Shown here in pieces: positions 5,062 to 15,923 of a DNA stretch of 15,923 nucleotides. The notes under the pieces are model-generated. The model saw only the letters and a program-made list of their open reading frames with translations, was not told where the DNA came from and made no database searches. The first letter of the stretch is position 1; each line of letters begins with the position of its first letter. The DNA comes from an uncultured Gammaproteobacteria bacterium. GTDB taxonomy: Bacteria > Pseudomonadota > Gammaproteobacteria > Pseudomonadales > Azotimanducaceae_A. The translations under genes were made by a program, and so were the position numbers. The DNA is taken from positions 1 through 15,923 of the forward strand of contig CAJWGQ010000051.1 of assembly GCA_913041025.1 (NCBI GenBank), given 5' to 3'.

Positions 5062-6789
5062 CTATTGGTCTTGCCAGCTTTTGATCAGTTCATCGTAGGG
5101 TACGGTTTTGCCCTTCGGGTTTTCATCAGCAAGTTTTGGTTTTGGTGCCCCCTCCTGATTGAGCCAATACGCGGGATCTACGCTGTCGTTGAGTTGAGGA
5201 CCGCATTCTCCTTGGACTCCGTGAGTGGCTAAACGTTCTAGAACTCTGTCCTGCTGCTCGGCCAATTGATTCATTGCTGCTTGCGCTGTTTGTTCTCCAC
5301 TTACAGCGTTAGCCACGTTAGCCCACCAGAGTTGTGCTAACTTGGGGTAGTCGGGTACGTTGGTGCCTGTAGGAGTCCAAGCGGTTCGCGCTGGGCTTCT
5401 GTAAAATTCAACGAGACCCCCCAGCCTTGGAGCGAGTTTCGTCATGGCTTCAGATCGAATATCAGAATCCCTGATGGGTGTTAATCCGACTAACGTTTTT
5501 TTGAGCGAAACTGTTTTCGACACGACGAATTGAGCATAGAGCCACGCTGCTTGTCGACGCTCCAATGGAGTGCTCTTTAATAAAGTCCAGGCGCCAGTAT
5601 CTTGATACCCCAGTTTCATGCCCTCCGACCAATAGGGTCCGTGAGGAGAGGGTGCCATACGCCATTTTGGCGAACCATCCTCGTCTACGACCGGAAGTCC
5701 TTCCTTGATCATGTCGGCCGTAAATGTGGTATACCAGAAAATCTGTTGTGCGATCTGGCCCTGTGCTGGTACCGGTCCGGCTTCCGAAAAAGTCATGCCT
5801 GATGCTTCTGCTGGAGCATAACTCTTTAACCAATCAATATATTTTTGTAGGGCGTAGACAGCAGCAGGACTATTGGTCGCTCCTCCACGGCTCACTGAGG
5901 ATCCGACAGGTCGGCAACCCTCAACCCGGATTCCCCATTCGTCTACTGGCAAACCATTAGGAATTCCTTTGTCGCCAGCTCCAGCCATGGATAACCATGC
6001 ATCTGTAAAACGCCACCCTAGCGAGGGGTCTTTTTTACCGTAGTCCATATGACCATAGACGGGTTGGCCATCAATTTCTTTGACTTCTTTAGTAAAAAAA
6101 TCCGCTATATCTTCATAAGCAGACCAGTTGATGGGTACTCCCAATTGATAACCATAGATTTTTTCGAATTGATCTTTAAGTTGGGAGTCGCTGAACCAGT
6201 CGTATCGAAACCAATACAGATTCGCGAATTGTTGATCGGGCAACTGATATATTTTGCCGTCGGGTCCAGTGGTAAAGCTGATACCGATAAAATCCTCAAG
6301 GTCCAAAGTTGGTAAAGTGAAGTCTAAGCCTTCGTTTTCCATGAAGTCACTCAAGGCAACGACGTATCCATAGCGCGAATGAGTCCCAATTAAGTCGGAA
6401 TCATTGACGTAAGCATCGTAAACATTTTGACCGGTTTGCATTTGAGTCTGAAGTTTTTCGATTACATCGCCTTCTTGGATCAGGTCGTGATTGACCTTGA
6501 TGCCTGTGATTTCGTAAAACGCCTTGGTCAGTACTTCGCTCTCGTACTCATGGGTAGTTAGGGTTTCTGAGACAACGTTGATTGTCATTCCCCGAAATGG
6601 TTCTGAAGCTTTTGTGAACCAAGCAAGCTCATCGGCTTGTTCCTCTTTACTTAAGGTGGAGGGCTGAAATTCATTCAAGACGAGCTTTTCCGCATTAGCG
6701 GCAAAGTCGATGCTTTGGGTTGAAATGCTCTCGGTTTCTGAGCAACCCCAAAGCGTACAGACAAGTATCGAGTAAATAATGTATTTCAA
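5062..6789 (-). CDS. glpV: Substrate-binding lipoprotein of a glycerol-type ABC importer (GlpV-like)
   Basis: This 575-residue solute-binding protein resembles GlpV of the Rhizobium leguminosarum glycerol transporter. Recognisable family stretches include NEFQPSTLSKEEQ (39-51), VNDSDLIGTHSR (128-139), the QLPDQQFANLYWFR region (182-195), and the GCRPVGSS and SRGGATNSP segments (291-308). The N-terminus is a lipoprotein signal: MKY, a hydrophobic core, then L-W-G-C with Cys16 as the lipidated residue and Ser at +2. Tryptophan at -2 is unusual. The start codon is TTG, supported by an AAGGGAG site seven bases upstream on the coding strand and by the lipobox position. It is the fifth transporter gene after glpS, separated from glpU by 48 bp, the largest gap inside the transporter set. 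Glycerol is the expected ligand by family; a related polyol is possible. Confidence 0.82.
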   Translation of the reverse strand: MKYIIYSILVCTLWGCSETESISTQSIDFAANAEKLVLNEFQPSTLSKEEQADELAWFTKASEPFRGMTINVVSETLTTHEYESEVLTKAFYEITGIKVNHDLIQEGDVIEKLQTQMQTGQNVYDAYVNDSDLIGTHSRYGYVVALSDFMENEGLDFTLPTLDLEDFIGISFTTGPDGKIYQLPDQQFANLYWFRYDWFSDSQLKDQFEKIYGYQLGVPINWSAYEDIADFFTKEVKEIDGQPVYGHMDYGKKDPSLGWRFTDAWLSMAGAGDKGIPNGLPVDEWGIRVEGCRPVGSSVSRGGATNSPAAVYALQKYIDWLKSYAPAEASGMTFSEAGPVPAQGQIAQQIFWYTTFTADMIKEGLPVVDEDGSPKWRMAPSPHGPYWSEGMKLGYQDTGAWTLLKSTPLERRQAAWLYAQFVVSKTVSLKKTLVGLTPIRDSDIRSEAMTKLAPRLGGLVEFYRSPARTAWTPTGTNVPDYPKLAQLWWANVANAVSGEQTAQAAMNQLAEQQDRVLERLATHGVQGECGPQLNDSVDPAYWLNQEGAPKPKLADENPKGKTVPYDELIKSWQDQ

Positions 6790-6795
6790 GTTGCG

Positions 6796-6802
6796 CTCCC
6801 TT
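6796..6802 (-). promoter_or_regulatory. Ribosome binding site AAGGGAG fixing the TTG start of glpV
   Basis: Read on the minus strand, AAGGGAG lies just upstream of the TTG at 6789, at good spacing. No in-frame ATG lies close enough to preserve the lipoprotein signal. Confidence 0.6.
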
Positions 6803-6837
6803 ATGACATTAGTCTTTCCCTCAAGAATTATAGTATT

Positions 6838-7110
6838 TCAGCCCCACCGTAACACTACTATTGCCCAAGCAATTGCTGTTACGGATCCATACAATATTGA
6901 GGCTGAGGAAAGTCCGAGGAAAGCAATGTGGATAAATGCTGACCCTAGTAAGCTGATAAAGACTCGATCCCCCCGAGTAGTGCTTATTGGTAAAAACCCT
7001 TTGCGTTTAACGGTCGGCCTGATGATCTCCAAAACAGTAAACAGAGCTAATCCGGTCGCGATCGACACAAAAAAAATAGCCGTTGGTAGGGTCCAGGCCA
7101 TCCAACTCAC
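6838..7110 (-). CDS. glpU: Small membrane protein, DUF2160 family (GlpU-like)
   Basis: This 90-residue protein is almost wholly hydrophobic. Three membrane segments can be drawn, about 6-30 (TLPTAIFFVSIATGLALF), 48-67 and 70-88, with a basic RPTVKRKG loop between the first two. The size and position between the second permease gene and the binding protein match DUF2160/GlpU, an accessory component of the rhizobial glycerol importer whose exact role is not known. The GTG start at 7110 overlaps the glpQ stop by 4 bp (GTGA). An ATG three codons further in is an alternative start. Confidence 0.75.
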   Translation of the reverse strand: MSWMAWTLPTAIFFVSIATGLALFTVLEIIRPTVKRKGFLPISTTRGDRVFISLLGSAFIHIAFLGLSSASILYGSVTAIAWAIVVLRWG

Positions 7111-7931
7111 GAGAGTCTCCCCAAGGTAAATCCTTTTGTCAGGTGTTTTCTAACAAACCAAATTACGATAATGCCCGGGATTATGGTTAGTACACCTGCT
7201 GCCGCGAGAACACCCCAATCGATGCCCGAAGCGCTCACGGTTCGGGTCATCGTTACTACAATAGGTTTGGCATTTGTTGCCGTGAGAGTTCTTGCAAGAA
7301 GTAGCTCGACCCAGCTGAACATAAAACAAAAAAAGATAGTCACTCCGATTGCGCTACGATTGATAGGAAGGAAAATTCGGAAAAAAAAGAAAAGGAAACT
7401 GTGGCCATCAATCTCAGCCATCTCATCGAGGTCTCTGGAAATGCTAGACATGAACCCCTCGAGAATCCAAACGGCTAAAGGAATAGTAAACAGGCAATGC
7501 GCTAAGGCAACTGCGAAAGGCGTATCAAATAGTCCTATCGCTGAATAAAGCTGGAAGAATGGTATTAAGAAAACGGCGGGTGGTGCCATCCTATTAGTGA
7601 GTAGCCAAAAAAATAGTTGTCGGTCACCTAAAAACCGATAGCGAGAAAAGGCATAAGCTGCCGGTATTGAGACTATGATTGATATTGTGGTGTTGATAAT
7701 GACGTAGCTGAGAGAATTCATGAACCCCTGATACCAGGCTGGGTTAGACCAAATTTCTGCGAAATTACTTAACGTTATCTCAGTAGGAACAATAGAAAAA
7801 TTTCCTAGTATGTTGCTGTTCGACTGAAAAGCTAACGTAAACAGCCAGTAGATTGGTATTGCGAGATAGACGCAATAAAGCGCCAGCACCCATTGGCTAG
7901 GAGTCCATAATTTTGGTTTGAATTCAGTCAT
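7107..7931 (-). CDS. glpQ: ABC importer permease, MalG/UgpE type (GlpQ-like)
   Basis: This inner-membrane permease has 274 residues and about six membrane helices. The cytoplasmic EAA loop that docks on the ATPase is seen as EMAEIDGHSFLFFFFRIFLP (170-189), with the invariant Gly176 and the ending L-P. The length and N-terminal layout fit the second permease of carbohydrate-type importers. The ATG overlaps the end of glpP by 8 bp (ATGACTGA), and its stop overlaps the glpU start, which indicates translational coupling. The symbol follows the rhizobial glycerol system and is unrelated to the E. coli phosphodiesterase of the same name. Confidence 0.82.
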   Translation of the reverse strand: MTEFKPKLWTPSQWVLALYCVYLAIPIYWLFTLAFQSNSNILGNFSIVPTEITLSNFAEIWSNPAWYQGFMNSLSYVIINTTISIIVSIPAAYAFSRYRFLGDRQLFFWLLTNRMAPPAVFLIPFFQLYSAIGLFDTPFAVALAHCLFTIPLAVWILEGFMSSISRDLDEMAEIDGHSFLFFFFRIFLPINRSAIGVTIFFCFMFSWVELLLARTLTATNAKPIVVTMTRTVSASGIDWGVLAAAGVLTIIPGIIVIWFVRKHLTKGFTLGRLS

Positions 7932-8784
7932 TGTTATTGACTACGCTCGAGTAGAAGATCCAACAAAACAGTAAGGTAAAAAGAAAATATATGACGGAGA
8001 ATGCAGCGGCGGGCCCGAGATCGAACTGTCCAACCGCAATCGTCGTCAGGTACTGACTCAGAAAGGTTGTGGTATTTCCAGGGCCTCCTCCAGTAAGAAC
8101 AAAAGGTTCTGTATAAATCATAAAACTGTCGATCAGTCTGAGGAGCACTGCGATGATTAGCACGCTCCGTAGCCTGGGAAGTTCTATGTATCGAAATACC
8201 TGCCAAGCATTGGCGCCATCAAGCTCTGCAGCTTGATAATAAACAGAGGGAACTGAGGACAAGCCGGCGTAAGCCAGTAATGCGACTAGAGAGGTCCAGT
8301 GCCAAACATCCATAGCTAACAAGGTTAGCCAGGCATCCAAAGGGTCAGCAGTGTAGTTATAAGAAAAACCTATAGCGTTTAAAGCCACCCCAAGTAGTCC
8401 AATGTCTGAACGCGCAAAGAGTTGCCAGATTGTGCCGACGACGTTCCAAGGGATTAATAACGGTATCGCTAATAGAACTAGAATTAGAGAGGCGGCCCAA
8501 CCAGCCCTTGGCATCCCCCTGGCTATCAGGATTCCTAGAGGCACTTCGATCAGTAGAATGCTGGCACTGAAAGTTATTTGGCGAAGGAAAGCTTCAATAA
8601 ATCTGGGATCTTGAAGGGTTTGTTGGTACCACTGCAGTCCAACGAAAAATCGGGTGTTGAAGTCTAGTATATCTTGCACTGAATAATTAACGACGGCCAT
8701 CAAAGGGATAACGCCGCTGAATGAAACAATGAGCACCACAGGCAACACGCCCAACCATGCCCTGTTGTTTCGAGTTTTAAACAT
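7924..8784 (-). CDS. glpP: ABC importer permease, MalF/UgpA type (GlpP-like)
   Basis: This 286-residue permease has about six membrane helices. The first is at about 10-32 (WLGVLPVVLIVSFSG). The EAA loop is YYQAAELDGANAWQVFRYIE (182-201), followed by LP. The TGGGPGNTTTFLSQYL segment (231-246) is typical of UgpA/MalF-like partners. It shares 8 bp with both neighbours (ATGTTTAA upstream, ATGACTGA downstream), so it is tightly coupled to glpT and glpQ. Together with GlpQ it forms the membrane channel for the substrate delivered by the lipoprotein at 5062-6789. Confidence 0.82.
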   Translation of the reverse strand: MFKTRNNRAWLGVLPVVLIVSFSGVIPLMAVVNYSVQDILDFNTRFFVGLQWYQQTLQDPRFIEAFLRQITFSASILLIEVPLGILIARGMPRAGWAASLILVLLAIPLLIPWNVVGTIWQLFARSDIGLLGVALNAIGFSYNYTADPLDAWLTLLAMDVWHWTSLVALLAYAGLSSVPSVYYQAAELDGANAWQVFRYIELPRLRSVLIIAVLLRLIDSFMIYTEPFVLTGGGPGNTTTFLSQYLTTIAVGQFDLGPAAAFSVIYFLFTLLFCWIFYSSVVNNND

Positions 8785-9817
8785 ATTCAGATTCTTCTAT
8801 GAGTTTGTTTGATTGAAATTTCAGAAAATGTTCCAGTTTAACTGCTACTTTTTTATTTCTTGGATGATCCAGAGGGCCCGCAACGGCTATTTCGCCAGCC
8901 TGTGTTGAAATCCATGTTATACCTTTGGCAATGCCCAGCTCAGTACCAGTGAGCTGAGTTTTGGTTACTACCCCATTCAAATCACCATCTTCAGCGGGCG
9001 CAAATCTTGCCCACTCTGGCCGAAAGCCAATCTCTTTCCCTGAACCCCTCTTCGAAATATTTGAGCTCAAGAATTCGACTGAAACAAAGTTCATTCCGGG
9101 GGACCCAATAAAGGATCCAACAAATTTTTGAGCCGGCCTATGATAGAGAGATTGAGGGTCGTCGATTTGCAAAATTTCGCCTTGATCCATTACCGCGACT
9201 CGATTTGCGAAGGTAAGGGCTTCCGTTTGATCGTGAGTAACGTAGATCATGGTTAATCCCAAATCTTGCTGGAGCGTGCGTAATGTGTCTCGAAGTTGCC
9301 ACTTCATGCGAGGCTCAACCGAAGTGAGTGGTTCGTCGAGAAGTACAACCGAAATATCGGGACGAATTAGCGATTTACCGATAGCAATTAATTGCTTCTG
9401 GAATAGTGATAGATCTGCTGGGCGCTTATCAAATAGGTATGAGATGTTCAATTGCTGAACGATTTGATCAAGACGTTTTTGAACAAGCGGACGATTAAAC
9501 TTGCGGACTTTAAGAGGAAATTCGAGGTTTTCTTTTACGGATAGAGCCTCGTAGAGAACAGGGAATTGAAATACCTGAGCGAGATTCCTGTCGCGGCTTT
9601 TGACTGAGTTAATACAGTTCTTATTAAATTTAATGAGGCCAGAACTAGGTTTCAATATGCCTGATAACAGGTTTAACAGTGTGGTTTTTCCAGCACCTGA
9701 AGCTCCTAATAGGGCAAAAGCTTCTCCGCTTTCTATTTCTAATGAGACGGGTTTTAAGGCGGGATCTTCTGAGCCTGGATAACGAAACTCAAGGTTTTCT
9801 AATCGGATTATCGTCAC
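8777..9817 (-). CDS. glpT: ABC importer ATPase with degenerate signature motif (GlpT-like)
   Basis: This 346-residue nucleotide-binding subunit resembles MalK/UgpC. It has Walker A GASGAGKT (38-45), Q-loop Gln84, Walker B VVLLDEP with Asp161 and Glu162, the switch His195 in YVTHDQTEA, and a C-terminal regulatory OB-like domain containing FRPEWARFAP. The ABC signature, normally LSGGQ, reads L-S-L-F-Q (136-140), and the D-loop reads S-V-E instead of A-L-D. The matching degenerate signature is also characteristic of rhizobial GlpT, so this looks ancestral, not a mutation. The GTG start at 9817 overlaps the glpS stop by 4 bp. The symbol follows the rhizobial system, not the E. coli glycerol-3-phosphate permease. 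Confidence 0.82.
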   Translation of the reverse strand: MTIIRLENLEFRYPGSEDPALKPVSLEIESGEAFALLGASGAGKTTLLNLLSGILKPSSGLIKFNKNCINSVKSRDRNLAQVFQFPVLYEALSVKENLEFPLKVRKFNRPLVQKRLDQIVQQLNISYLFDKRPADLSLFQKQLIAIGKSLIRPDISVVLLDEPLTSVEPRMKWQLRDTLRTLQQDLGLTMIYVTHDQTEALTFANRVAVMDQGEILQIDDPQSLYHRPAQKFVGSFIGSPGMNFVSVEFLSSNISKRGSGKEIGFRPEWARFAPAEDGDLNGVVTKTQLTGTELGIAKGITWISTQAGEIAVAGPLDHPRNKKVAVKLEHFLKFQSNKLIEESEYV

Positions 9818-10800
9818 AACGACTTATCCTGAAAGAGCAGCAGGTCTCTCTGATGGACCGATACGGAAACGGTCTCCCCTGCTGATATTGACATCATTCC
9901 TGGTCTTCGAACTACCCAATCTAAGCCATCTACCTTTCCGTGCAGGATCGTCTCGTCACCCGTTGTCTCCGTGGCACTCACGGCGAATTTAAAATAGGTT
10001 TCTTGTGAAGAGGTGGTTTCGCTTGCGATGCGCACGTGCTCTGGTCTGACCGCAGTTAATTGGGCGGGCAAACTTCCTCCTGTACTAGTGGGAATTAAAT
10101 TAACACTGGGTTCACTAAAGAGATCAGCTGCTTCCTTACTAACAGGTTTTTGATACAGGTCTAAAATTGGACCCGCCTGTATTTTTTGCTGATTGGCAAG
10201 TAATAAGACCTCGTCGCCCATGGCAAAGGCCTCGCGAGGACTTGATGTTGCATAGATGACTATAGTGCCTTGTTCTGCGAGTAGTTCCTGCAGCTCTAAA
10301 GCAATGAGTTCCCTCAGTTTGTAATCGAGATTGGCAAAGGGTTCATCTAGTAACAAGACTTGTGCCTCTTTGGCTAAAGCTCTTGCGATGGCCAGTCGCT
10401 GTTGCTGCCCGCCGCTCAGTTCGTTAGGCATCCTATCGAGCAATTCCCCCAGTCCCATTCTCTTTGCGATATTTGCTGCTCTTCGATCCTGGTCTTGTTT
10501 TGACAAGCCTTTTTGCAGCAACGGCGAGATGATATTTTGCTTAACATTCCAATTGGGGTAGTTAACGAAATGTTGTAGGACTAATGCGATCGACCGGTTT
10601 TGAGCCCTCCTATCAGTTATATTTTCTTCGTCGAGCTTTAAAATTCCTTTCGCAGGACTAGATAACCCTGCGATAAATCTTAGTAGATTGGTTTTTCCTG
10701 AATTGTTGCGGCCTAACACGACTGTTGTTGAGGCTTTTTTGAACTCGTGTGAAAAAGCCTCTGATTGGGGCTCAATTTTCAGATTATGGATTTCAAACAT
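9814..10800 (-). CDS. glpS: ABC importer ATPase lacking the switch histidine (GlpS-like)
   Basis: This 328-residue nucleotide-binding subunit is the partner of the ATPase downstream. It has Walker A GRNNSGKT (30-37), Q-loop Gln76, a canonical signature LSGGQQQR (128-135), Walker B VLLLDEP with Glu153, and D-loop ANLD. The H-loop, normally T-H-D-Q, reads T-S-S-P (185-188), so the switch histidine is absent. A C-terminal TOBE-like domain contains AVRPEHVRIA (250-259). It is the first transporter gene. Its ATG lies 46 bp after the esterase gene with no strong Shine-Dalgarno sequence, so translation may depend on upstream ribosomes. Confidence 0.82.
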   Translation of the reverse strand: MFEIHNLKIEPQSEAFSHEFKKASTTVVLGRNNSGKTNLLRFIAGLSSPAKGILKLDEENITDRRAQNRSIALVLQHFVNYPNWNVKQNIISPLLQKGLSKQDQDRRAANIAKRMGLGELLDRMPNELSGGQQQRLAIARALAKEAQVLLLDEPFANLDYKLRELIALELQELLAEQGTIVIYATSSPREAFAMGDEVLLLANQQKIQAGPILDLYQKPVSKEAADLFSEPSVNLIPTSTGGSLPAQLTAVRPEHVRIASETTSSQETYFKFAVSATETTGDETILHGKVDGLDWVVRRPGMMSISAGETVSVSVHQRDLLLFQDKSL

Positions 10801-13131: not shown

Positions 13132-13980
13132 ATGAAAGTAGGAATTATTCCTGTAAATATTGGTGTGGAAAGTGTCGAGCAAATTGTTGGTCTGGCAAAA
13201 CTTGCTGAATCATTGAAGTATGAGTCAGTCTGGACTTTCGAGCATGTGATAGTGCCAATCGATTATGAATCCAAATACCCTTACAACAGCTCGGGTAAGA
13301 TGGGAATGCCGCCAGAGACGAATTTTGTGGACCCTCTTATTGCTTTGACAGCGGTTGCTGCAGTGACTGAGGAGATTCGTTTGGGAACGGGAGTAAATAT
13401 ATTGTCCCAAGTAAATCCATTGTACATGGCGAAACAGGCAGCGAGCTTGGACTTCGTCTCGAATGGTCGATTCATGCTTGGTGTGGGCATTGGCTGGTTG
13501 AAAGAAGAATTTGAAGCCCTAGGCGTACCCTATGAAAAAAGAGGTGCGCGATTTGACGATTATGTAGCAGGTATGCGAAAGATCTGGTCAGAGGAAGTCG
13601 TGGAACATGAAAGTGAATTTATTTCGTGGCATGGCTTCAAGAGTTACCCCCTACCGATACAAAATCCTTTTCCTGTGGTCATGGGTGGCGTCAAAGGCAA
13701 GATCTTTGAGCGCACGGCTCAGTTAGGAAATGGCTGGTTTGCGCCAACGGGTGATCCGAGTGAACTTAAAGAGCATTTAGAAAGCCTGAAAATAGAATGT
13801 GACAAAGTCGGCCGAGATGTGGGTGAAATCGAGATTACCTGTATGTGGCCCGGACAGGGTGGCCGAGATTTTCTTGAGGAACTGTCGTCCGTCGGAGTTG
13901 GACGGGTTGTGGTGCCTATGATGGGTGCTGCAGATCCGACGGAGCATCTCCAGAGTATTGCAGAGACAGCGATCTTGTAA
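13132..13980 (+). CDS. Luciferase-like (LLM class) flavin- or F420-dependent oxidoreductase
   Basis: This 282-residue TIM-barrel oxidoreductase belongs to the bacterial luciferase-like superfamily, nearest to the F420-dependent Rv2161c-type group (TIGR03619) as I recognise it. Visible family features are an N-terminal beta strand KVGIIPVN, YESVWTFEHV (30-39), RLGTGVNIL (83-91), NGRFMLGVGIGWLKEEFEAL (111-130) followed by RGARFDDYVAGMRKIW (137-152). It has no signal peptide and is cytoplasmic. F420 synthesis is not usual in gammaproteobacteria, so FMN may be the true cofactor; sequence alone does not settle this. The ATG at 13132 has a strong GAGGGGG site five bases upstream. It diverges from the hydrolase operon and ends at a strong hairpin. 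Confidence 0.85.
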   Translation: MKVGIIPVNIGVESVEQIVGLAKLAESLKYESVWTFEHVIVPIDYESKYPYNSSGKMGMPPETNFVDPLIALTAVAAVTEEIRLGTGVNILSQVNPLYMAKQAASLDFVSNGRFMLGVGIGWLKEEFEALGVPYEKRGARFDDYVAGMRKIWSEEVVEHESEFISWHGFKSYPLPIQNPFPVVMGGVKGKIFERTAQLGNGWFAPTGDPSELKEHLESLKIECDKVGRDVGEIEITCMWPGQGGRDFLEELSSVGVGRVVVPMMGAADPTEHLQSIAETAIL

Positions 13981-13990
13981 TTTGATCTGT

Positions 13991-14030
13991 GGACCAATGC
14001 ATCGATTAGATGCGTTGGTCCATTTATTTT
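13991..14030 (+). terminator. Strong hairpin terminator after the luciferase-like gene
   Basis: GGACCAATGCATC (13991-14003) pairs with GATGCGTTGGTCC (14009-14021) over 13 bp with one G-U, closing a GATTA loop. ATTTATTTT follows immediately, fitting an intrinsic terminator for the plus-strand gene that ends 10 bp earlier. The T-rich tail runs into the stop codon of the convergent uppP gene. In the other direction no U-run follows the stem, so it is weak as a terminator for uppP. Confidence 0.88.
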
Positions 14031-14844
14031 AAGGCGTTAAGTCGGCAAAGATCGCCAGCGTTCCAATGATAAAGCAGTAGTAAGCGAAATATTTTAGCTG
14101 GGCTTTCTGAACTAGCGAGATCATCCATTTACAAGCAACGATGCCCGTTAGAAAAGCGGCCGTGAACCCACCAATTAAGACTAAAAGCTGACCCTCCTGT
14201 ACTGCTAGAGAACCGTCGAGTAAATCTTTGGTAATTTTCCCAAAAATTAACGGAATAACCATCAGAAAGGAAAAGCTAGCCGCTTTGGTTCGGTCTATCC
14301 CTAACAACACGGCCGTGGAAATGGTCGCACCGGAGCGTGAAATTCCAGGCAGAATTGCAACCGCTTGGGCAAGACCCAATACTAGTGCGTAAACGAAAGA
14401 AACTTCTTTATCGGTATCGCGAGATCGATCGGCAACGAACAAGAGTAAACCTGTCACCAACAACATGAGGCCGACGAGCAGTATTTGCTTATCAAACAAC
14501 CTTTCTAGCTCTTCAGAATAGAAAAACCCAATAAAGCCGGCTGGTACCATGCTCAATAGAATTTTCAGCGAAAATCGAAAAGGCTCGTTGTTTTTAAATT
14601 CAAAAAGGCCCAGAAGTATCGATGTGACCTCTTTTCTAAATACAATCAAAGTGCTGAAAGCGGTCGCGAAGTGAAGCACCACAGTAAACATCATACTCTC
14701 TCGGGGGATGCTATTGTCGCCTAACAAGAATTTCCCGAGTTCAAGGTGGCCGCTACTGCTAACCGGGAGGAATTCCGTGAGCCCCTGTATGACCCCAAGT
14801 AGAAGCGCTTCTAAAAGTGACAAGTAGGAACTCTGCGTGAACAA
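14029..14844 (-). CDS. uppP: Undecaprenyl-diphosphatase (UppP/BacA)
   Basis: UppP removes one phosphate from undecaprenyl diphosphate, recycling the lipid carrier for peptidoglycan and other envelope polymers. It acts in the inner membrane. The 271 residues contain the family's two signature regions: QGLTEFLPVSSSGHLE (20-35), giving the Q/E-xxx-E element and the conserved serines and His33, and PGISRSGATIS (167-177) with Arg171. About eight hydrophobic segments are visible. The only upstream in-frame start before a stop is TTG at 14844, with no clear Shine-Dalgarno sequence. A second TTG at 14823 would start the protein at LSLLEALL, close to the usual N-terminus of the family. It lies 52 bp downstream of the selenoprotein gene on the same strand. 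Confidence 0.96.
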   Translation of the reverse strand: MFTQSSYLSLLEALLLGVIQGLTEFLPVSSSGHLELGKFLLGDNSIPRESMMFTVVLHFATAFSTLIVFRKEVTSILLGLFEFKNNEPFRFSLKILLSMVPAGFIGFFYSEELERLFDKQILLVGLMLLVTGLLLFVADRSRDTDKEVSFVYALVLGLAQAVAILPGISRSGATISTAVLLGIDRTKAASFSFLMVIPLIFGKITKDLLDGSLAVQEGQLLVLIGGFTAAFLTGIVACKWMISLVQKAQLKYFAYYCFIIGTLAIFADLTP

Positions 14845-14896: not shown

Positions 14897-15880
14897 TCAG
14901 TTGGCTTTGGCATTCAAGGTTTCATCGCGCACTTGTTGACCGATTTCCTTGATTTTATCGAATTCTTGTCTGCGGCGTTTGATCTCGTCTGCTGGAATAC
15001 GGTCCACATTTTGGAAATCAAGTTTCCAGTCGTGACTGGTTGACCAGATTTCAGGTGATTGAACAGTGGTCCTAGGTGCAATTGAGTTTTCCAAGAGCTT
15101 TAGGGCAAGCTCTAATGTTATGTCTTGCGAAGCTGCATTATTTGGTTTGCCAGCGGAGTTGCCAAGCGGGAAATCGGAGAATAAAAACCTAGGAACACCG
15201 CAGTGCTCAACGATGTCCTTAGCAGAACCCGCAATCACAGTAGGAATGTTATTAGCTTCCAGGTGTCTCGCGACCAGACTCACGGTCTGGTGGCAGACCG
15301 GTCAGTTGGGCACCAGTAGCACGACGTCTACGCCGTCTTTTTTTACAAGATCTAGCAAATCAGAACAGTCCTGTTGAATGGTGGTTGCTTGGCTGCGATT
15401 GGTAGGTGCTCCGTAGTATCTTGTCGAAAGCTCGCCGACTCTGCCTCTTTGTTGGGCTCTTCTAAGCGCTTCAAGAGGAAAGAAGGAATTTATGTCTTCG
15501 GCAGTAGAATATTTCCTGTCGTAGCCGACATGCGATATACCCAGAAAGTCAACCTGATCAGTATTTCCTGCATAGACCTCGTAAAATTTTGCGGCCGCGT
15601 TATATGGAGCTCCTGGTCCTTGGTCTCCAGCGCCTTTTTTATAAGGAGCGGCAGTGGTAATTAGACCGATCTTAGACTGAGCCAGTGGTTTAGTCAGAGT
15701 TGTAAAAGGTACTTCTGAGTAGGCGGCCCATTGGTAAGGATTGCCATAGCCAAGGGCTAAATAATAGTCTCTGAGCCTTTGCATGTAGGGTATAGATTCA
15801 AGGATAGGCTCTTCAGAATTGGTTAAATGGTTAGGCTTGATTGTAATTTGCGATGTATTCATAGCTTTAGAGTCTCGCAT
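14897..15880 (-). CDS. GrdB-related selenoprotein (in-frame UGA read as selenocysteine at residue 193)
   Basis: Two same-frame pieces join through a single TGA (15304-15302) into one 327-residue protein. Across the junction the sequence reads VVLLVPN-U-PVCHQTVSLV, a redox U-x-x-C motif at 193-196, and both halves share one family. The first half contains the ESIPYMQRLRDYYLALGYGN (28-47) and GDQGPGAPYNAAAKFYEVY (85-103) stretches. The second half contains KDIVEHCGVPRFLFSDFPLG. I recognise this as the glycine/sarcosine/betaine reductase selenoprotein B-like family, many aerobic members of which have Cys in place of Sec. The reaction of these aerobic relatives is unknown, and no GrdA/C/D/E partners are present in this window. 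The ATG at 15880 has AAGG eight bases upstream. The true stop at 14897-14899 is also TGA. Confidence 0.85.
15269..15304 (-). promoter_or_regulatory. Sec UGA codon and bacterial SECIS-like hairpin
   Basis: On the coding strand, directly after the UGA (15304-15302), ACCAGAC (15291-15285) pairs with GTCTGGT (15279-15273) around a five-base CGUGA loop. Below it come a C-C mismatch and three more pairs (UGC with GCG). Counting from the UGA, the loop G is nucleotide 19. Bacterial SECIS elements recognised by SelB have a small apical loop with G in the first two positions, roughly 16-37 nt from the UGA, so the geometry fits. A competing stem, GGUCUG-CCAC-CAGACC, overlaps it. Confidence 0.72.
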
Positions 15881-15923
15881 ATTAGTTGCCTTAAGGTTAG
15901 ATCAAACTATCTTTTTTATGCCC

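Follow-up and report, generated by a model that had tools for sequence, protein, structure and literature searches.

Glycine reductase and D-proline reductase work through a pyruvoyl group, which activates the substrate, and through selenol chemistry, by which a C-N bond is cleaved. The pyruvoyl subunits of these enzymes, PrdA and GrdE, are taken here to be the proteins covered by PF09338. A 2026 review places D-proline reductase under the profile TIGR04483 (PMC13188914). Selenoproteins of the kind described here are already known from two seawater surveys, which list them as "Proline reductase (PrdB)" with a U-x-x-C motif: the Sargasso Sea survey (PMC1088965) counted 42 Sec sequences, and the GOS survey (PMC2398784), where they stand under pfam07355, counted 235 Sec and 110 Cys sequences. 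The available passages of both surveys supply the counts and the name, and no test for partner subunits, CoA-transferase link or division into subfamilies was seen in them. A further comparison is FarB, a GrdB-like selenoprotein from a fluoroacetate-degrading, dehalorespiring rumen bacterium, which according to the excerpted description is encoded in an operon with the GrdE homologue farE and is proposed to cleave the C-F bond through attack by its Sec (PMC10838667).

The window, by which we mean the whole stretch of 15,923 nucleotides analysed, contains a gene that resembles the survey proteins, by description and not by sequence comparison, in its U-x-x-C motif, its pfam07355 membership (as in the GOS survey), a seawater association, abundance and the existence of Cys homologues. 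The features of the locus are listed in Table 1. The minus-strand frame is open from the ATG at 15880 to the TGA at 14897-14899 apart from the single TGA at 15304-15302, and the joined product of 327 residues reads ...VPN-U-PVCHQT... with Sec as residue 193, so that the U-P-V-C motif of the original prediction is present as described. Translation with table 11 gives the two apparent ORFs that had been anticipated, of 192 amino acids (15302-15880) and 128 amino acids (14897-15283, GTG start), and inspection by eye found no Shine-Dalgarno sequence before the GTG at 15283. Family features were said to occur on both sides of the TGA, and each half alone indeed matches TIGR04483, with profile-search E-values of 2e-10 for the upstream ORF and 9e-7 for the downstream ORF compared with 7e-27 for the joined product.

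Table 1. Coordinates of the PrdB-like gene, its recoding signals and its downstream neighbour in the window.
Feature	Position	Strand	Evidence
Probable selenoprotein gene, stand-alone PrdB-like, GRDB family (PF07355); 327 codons + stop	14897..15880	-	Frame, profiles, homologues, dN/dS
In-frame TGA, codon 193, predicted to be read as selenocysteine	15302..15304	-	TGC 54, TGT 8, TGA 19 at this column (n=81; best 80 of at least 569 loci plus the window)
Cys196 codon, second residue of the U-x-x-C redox pair	15293..15295	-	Invariant in 37-sequence alignment
AAGG, likely Shine-Dalgarno, 8 nt 5' of ATG 15880	15889..15892	-	Sequence
SECIS-like hairpin: core stem 15291-15285/15279-15273, loop CGUGA 15284-15280	15270..15294	-	Folding, covariation
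Two outer pairs of the hairpin	15294-15293 with 15271-15270	-	
Next gene downstream, undecaprenyl-diphosphatase UppP/BacA	14029..14844	-	PF02673 above cut-off, NCBIfam models below theirs

The window gene very probably encodes a selenoprotein, because the column of residue 193 holds only Cys or Sec, a hairpin is conserved behind the UGA, dN/dS is alike on both sides of it and sel genes are found in most genomes of the TGA relatives. The account that we consider likely is of a true selenoprotein that belongs to the GRDB family as a stand-alone PrdB-like enzyme, with Sec193 as its nucleophile and Cys196 as the resolving residue.

Homologues were sought in one genome per bacterial or archaeal species, and the Sec/Cys and neighbour counts refer to the window plus the best 80 of at least 569 confirmed loci (from at least 596 pattern matches), that is, to close relatives and not to the whole family. 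When residue 193 was aligned within this set, all 81 sequences had a Cys or Sec codon and no other (Table 1). Besides the window, 18 assemblies belonging to two phyla have a TGA at exactly this column: 13 carry the label Gammaproteobacteria, Pseudomonadales or K189A clade, three are alphaproteobacterial and two are Rokuibacteriota. No further stop interrupts the matched stretch in the 15 of these TGA relatives examined, nor the stretches matched by TIGR04483 in the relatives' genomes. Judged from isolate labels most of these hosts look marine, and the source bacterium is probably marine too. The gene had been described as hidden, which is fair in that standard gene calling misses a single Sec gene of this kind, but the family had already been counted in the seawater surveys by its UxxC motif and pfam07355. 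The best identity found in predicted-protein sets was 66% (among the 120 best listed of 8000 scored proteins) compared with up to 85% in a six-frame genome search, which suggests that full-length Sec forms are absent from the predicted-protein sets.

AlphaFold2 modelling (mean pLDDT 86) puts residue 193 between strand 186-190 and helix 194-209, which would set it at a helix N-terminus, a common position for a nucleophile; a structure search with the model returned no solved structure that was clearly alike. Position 193 (Sec taken as C), P194, C196, H197 and Q198 are invariant in a protein alignment of 37 sequences, and 59 invariant columns are distributed along the protein. A haem-copper oxidase is encoded in 14 of the 18 genomes of TGA relatives, and most hosts therefore look aerobic. 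The score against the thioredoxin family is 12.1 bits where 24.8 are needed, and it is rather improbable that the protein is a Sec thiol-disulfide oxidoreductase or a peroxide or antioxidant enzyme of the thioredoxin or peroxiredoxin type instead of a catabolic reductase, even though a U-x-x-C pair at a helix N-terminus and the presence of the haem-copper oxidase would both suit such a role. The spread of invariant columns suggests a specific substrate pocket, several paralogues adjoin metabolic genes, and one subfamily has U-x-x-D in place of U-x-x-C, all of which speak against such a role.

The original prediction called the protein GrdB-like. It does belong to the GRDB family, passing PF07355 with 35.6 bits (gathering threshold 22), but by profile it is nearer to PrdB than to GrdB and falls far below the cut-offs of both: the PrdB equivalog TIGR04483 scores 94.4 bits over residues 59-265 against a cut-off of 300, and the GrdB-type profiles TIGR01917 and TIGR01918 score 43.6 against 602 and 41.8 against 65. 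A TIGR04483 match above 300 bits was found in none of 20 relatives' genomes. The protein shares with PrdB the profile over residues 59-265 and the Sec of U-x-x-C, but differs from it in extending about 60 residues further at the C-terminal end than the profile match, a region with a long helix at 297-326. Its homology to GrdB, GrdF and GrdH of glycine, sarcosine and betaine reductase is distant and confined to the C-terminal half of their profiles (38-47 bits); it has 327 residues, whereas those profiles have 431-435 positions, of which only about 212-428 are matched.

The partner subunits point the same way. No glycine-reductase partners had been noticed next to the gene, and the absence turns out to be genome-wide in 17 of the 18 TGA relatives: PF09338 is absent from 17 of these genomes and from six of six Cys genomes, and GrdA (PF04723) is likewise absent from 17 of the 18. 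The one genome of the 18 that has both is G025 (Rokuibacteriota). Its two PF09338 genes have two GrdB-type genes nearby, whose motifs U-G-T-C and U-G-T-S differ from the U-P-V-C of the window protein, and its other two PrdB-profile matches are on different contigs from the PF09338 genes. This genome serves as an internal control. An ordinary D-proline or glycine/betaine reductase subunit with its partners elsewhere in the genome would account for the PF07355 score, the E-value of the joined product against TIGR04483 and the name PrdB used in the surveys (PMC1088965, PMC2398784, in the passages available), but it is very unlikely given the low PrdB and GrdB scores, the missing PF09338 and GrdA genes and the separate GrdB-type genes that G025 keeps near its PF09338 genes. 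PrdB or GrdB proper was rejected on the profile scores and the absent partners; because it scores 94 rather than 300 bits, and PrdA/GrdE and GrdA are missing from 17 of the 18 relatives' genomes, the window gene appears to be neither. Proline reduction is probably not the real job of the seawater "PrdB" family.

The PrdB-like genes are often present in several copies. A TIGR04483 search of the 18 genomes of TGA relatives gave 74 matches, one to eight per genome, including the two GrdB-type genes of G025; exactly one in-frame TGA is present in 73 of the 74, the remaining match being a fragment at a contig edge. Two Cys genomes searched in the same way gave one match each, without a TGA. Motifs were read from 56 of these 76 matches, four of the 56 being the own-family gene itself (the family of the window gene); of the other 20 matches, 16 are probably own-family by position or score and four are others. 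The 56 comprise UPVCHQT-like (19), UPVCHQSVG (8), UPLDH (6), UPxCT-like (21) and GrdB-type UGTC/S (2) motifs. The UPLDH subfamily (L094, L101, L104, L108, L129 and L136) has Asp in place of the resolving Cys, and in four of its six loci an adjacent gene comes from one homologous group, identified by Pfam as an O-methyltransferase in L104, the one locus scanned. At L106 and L110 the PrdB-like selenoprotein gene overlaps a gene for a CoA-binding domain (PF13380), followed by a PLP enzyme of Cys/Met metabolism (PF01053); these names come from Pfam on L110, with the L106 genes assigned by homology. A tree was built from 24 own-family sequences (out of 81) together with 55 of the 56 matches sorted by motif (two L106 rows shared one name), four of the 55 repeating own-family genes. 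The window pairs with its closest relative, L001, within a clade of 28 rows (24 own-family plus the four repeats) with support 100/100, in which Sec and Cys forms are intermixed. The paralogue L096, with a branch of 3.5, may be misaligned or frame-damaged.

The gene following the window gene, uppP, holds that place only in the window and L001 among the 81 loci (best 80 of at least 569 plus the window), and it is therefore probably functionally unlinked. In the same set a class III CoA-transferase (PF02515-type) is the next same-strand gene in 42 of the 81 loci, comprising seven of 19 Sec loci and 35 of 62 Cys loci, with at least 700 nt of downstream sequence available for 19 Sec and 59 Cys loci. 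The adjacency spans Pseudomonadota, Rokuibacteriota and Actinomycetota, and in some loci the CoA-transferase overlaps the PrdB-like gene by 4 nt; the 42 are not independent events, because many of the Cys loci are from Bradyrhizobium. The adjacent CoA-transferases of G005 and G014 share 76% and 63% identity with the L002 enzyme, compared with at most 45% for the other CoA-transferases of ten genomes (among the matches listed), so the adjacent ones look like one orthologue group. Among the NCBIfam models the adjacent CoA-transferase fits succinate--glutarate CoA-transferase best, but its 258 bits (cut-off 750) are too few for its substrate to be named. In the window no CoA-transferase adjoins the PrdB-like gene, and a search of ten genomes for the orthologue elsewhere gave no match above 41% (among the matches listed) in the seven that lack an adjacent CoA-transferase, including G001, the genome of L001. 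The coupling is thus a property of many relatives and not of the window locus, since uppP is the next gene in the window and L001 and no orthologue was found elsewhere in G001.

A sodium:solute symporter gene takes the place of the CoA-transferase downstream in eight gammaproteobacterial loci (within 500 nt in seven, at 673 in one), and a glyoxalase-like gene follows further on in the same eight. Elsewhere in the window, the minus strand at 5062-10800 carries two tandem ATPase genes, two permeases and a solute-binding protein (three of the five identified by Pfam and two by eye), likely an ABC transporter operon, the upstream part of which has the same gene order in L001. The plus strand at 13132-13980 encodes a luciferase-like oxidoreductase that scores above the cut-off of the F420-dependent model TIGR03619.

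We infer that the window protein is a selenol/thiol enzyme whose substrate is a small acid in activated form. A mechanism can be drawn tentatively by analogy, because no pyruvoyl partner was found and the class III CoA-transferase is the next gene in about half of the loci; for the same reasons a CoA thioester would be the simplest alternative means of activation. Sec193, at the helix N-terminus, would act as nucleophile, and its selenolate would attack the carbon beside the activated carbonyl of a small organic acid, presented as a CoA thioester in those relatives that have the CoA-transferase. This would displace the leaving group and form a Se-C bond, and Cys196 would then resolve the intermediate, releasing the product and leaving a selenenylsulfide to be reduced by thioredoxin or a small thiol. 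Attack, Se-C bond and resolution by Cys196 in this form are a possibility that we hold with some reserve. The proposed Sec attack of FarB on a carbon bearing a leaving group is similar, as far as the excerpted description allows comparison (PMC10838667), although FarB, unlike the window protein, comes from a dehalorespiring rumen bacterium and is encoded with a GrdE homologue.

Constraint is similar on both sides of the UGA, dN/dS against L001 (85% identical) being 0.066 for residues 30-192 and 0.070 for residues 194-327. The two ORFs called with table 11 are what a sequencing error in the TGA, or a pseudogene, would give, but 18 further assemblies of two phyla share the TGA at that column (among the best 80 of at least 569 loci), both halves are under like constraint and the hairpin is preserved, which leaves such an origin with a negligible chance, and for the lineage a sequencing error is ruled out by the TGA common to the relatives. 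A host in which every TGA encodes some amino acid (code 4 or 25) would also keep the frame open through one TGA, but this is next to impossible and code 4 was rejected, as none of the 12 other window genes checked has an internal TGA, seven of them end in TGA and all 12 use TGG.

The UGA at codon 193 would be read as selenocysteine under the direction of the hairpin immediately downstream. This SECIS-like hairpin lies 10-34 nt after the U of the UGA and has a GU in its loop, which is the rule for bacterial SECIS loops. Its predicted energy in the window is -18.9 kcal/mol, equalled by six of 200 dinucleotide shuffles (z -2.04); against 300 synonymous shuffles z is -2.62 and the share as stable 0.00. 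In synonymous shuffles the 19 Sec genes have a mean z of -1.21 and the 62 Cys genes one of -0.35 (Mann-Whitney p 0.0018), with five of 19 and five of 62, respectively, singly below 0.05. Mean folding energies are alike (-14.2 for Sec genes, -14.0 for Cys genes), and stability by itself is weak evidence for a hairpin in the Sec group. The codon evidence is stronger. All 19 Sec genes use AGT for the serine at +8, as do four of the 39 Cys genes with an AGY serine there (Fisher 9e-12, in a test that ignores kinship). Codon identity to the window over +5 to +9 reaches 0.91 in Sec genes (0.39 elsewhere), compared with 0.48 in Cys genes (0.38 elsewhere). The run of codons identical with L001 was not significant.

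Among the 17 distinct Sec rows, 92.8% of cells are paired, compared with 20.9-30.7% when the structure is slid along the alignment and 74.9% in the 57 distinct Cys rows; the Cys rows also lie above their slid controls, since part of the stem is maintained by the conserved protein code itself. Pair 15-31 covaries in the Sec rows (U-A in eight, C-G in seven, U-G in one and unpaired in one, L008), and pair 19-27, which shows the largest contrast between the groups, is formed in 14 of 17 Sec rows and seven of 57 Cys rows. Pair 14-32 is unpaired in seven of the 17. Five structure measures were compared with shuffling in the Sec rows: three were reached by one of 500 shuffles each, and two showed no gain (304/500 and 500/500). 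The hairpin is thus conserved, partly covarying and held at synonymous sites in the Sec genes. A Cys gene of Belnapia (L022, 8487-8528) keeps CACCAGACCGTGAGTCTC, close to the Sec hairpin and perhaps a relic of an earlier Sec gene.

The machinery for selenocysteine was searched for in the genomes of the relatives, and selA, selB, selC and selD are each present in most of those with a TGA. SelA is above cut-off in 15 of 18 genomes, SelB in 13 of 17 (L027's genome left out) and SelD is found in 11 of 18. A tRNA-Sec of at least 67 bits is found in 11 of 17, and a further genome has one at 49.8 bits beside its own selD; 67 bits was used as the bar because five of 14 control genomes also exceed the gathering score of 47. 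Among the Cys-form genomes SelB is above cut-off in four of 11. Several genomes of TGA relatives look incomplete, and G010 (1.6 Mb) and G011 (2.0 Mb) have no SelA, SelB or SelD above cut-off. G001 carries selA, selB and tRNA-Sec together on one contig, with no SelD above cut-off and no COX1, a pattern expected of an incomplete genome. In three relatives selD itself has one in-frame TGA (G015:C23:23574-24500, G025:C31:24695-25639 and G029:C256:4655-5605).

No report of missing partners, copy number or a CoA-transferase link for the PrdB-like group was found in the open-access literature. The analysis shows a group without partners in 17 of 18 genomes, with one to eight copies per genome and, at about half of the loci, with an adjacent CoA-transferase. 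More speculatively, the seawater "PrdB" selenoproteins might not be proline reductases but a large unnamed enzyme group of aerobic bacteria that uses Sec, or Cys in many other species, for reductive cleavage of carbon-heteroatom bonds in small acids, in which a dedicated class III CoA-transferase rather than a pyruvoyl subunit provides activation, as the CoA thioester, and which has been duplicated over many substrates, up to eight per genome; this we think unlikely as a whole. If the published "PrdB" counts refer to the PrdB-like group, few selenoprotein families in surface seawater would be commoner. The label "PrdB" comes from an anaerobic enzyme, and the partner subunits of that enzyme were not found in 17 of the 18 genomes examined. 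The partnerless, multi-copy and CoA-transferase-adjacent features make this unsupported label testable, and Cys forms are available in cultured Bradyrhizobium and Siccirubricoccus.
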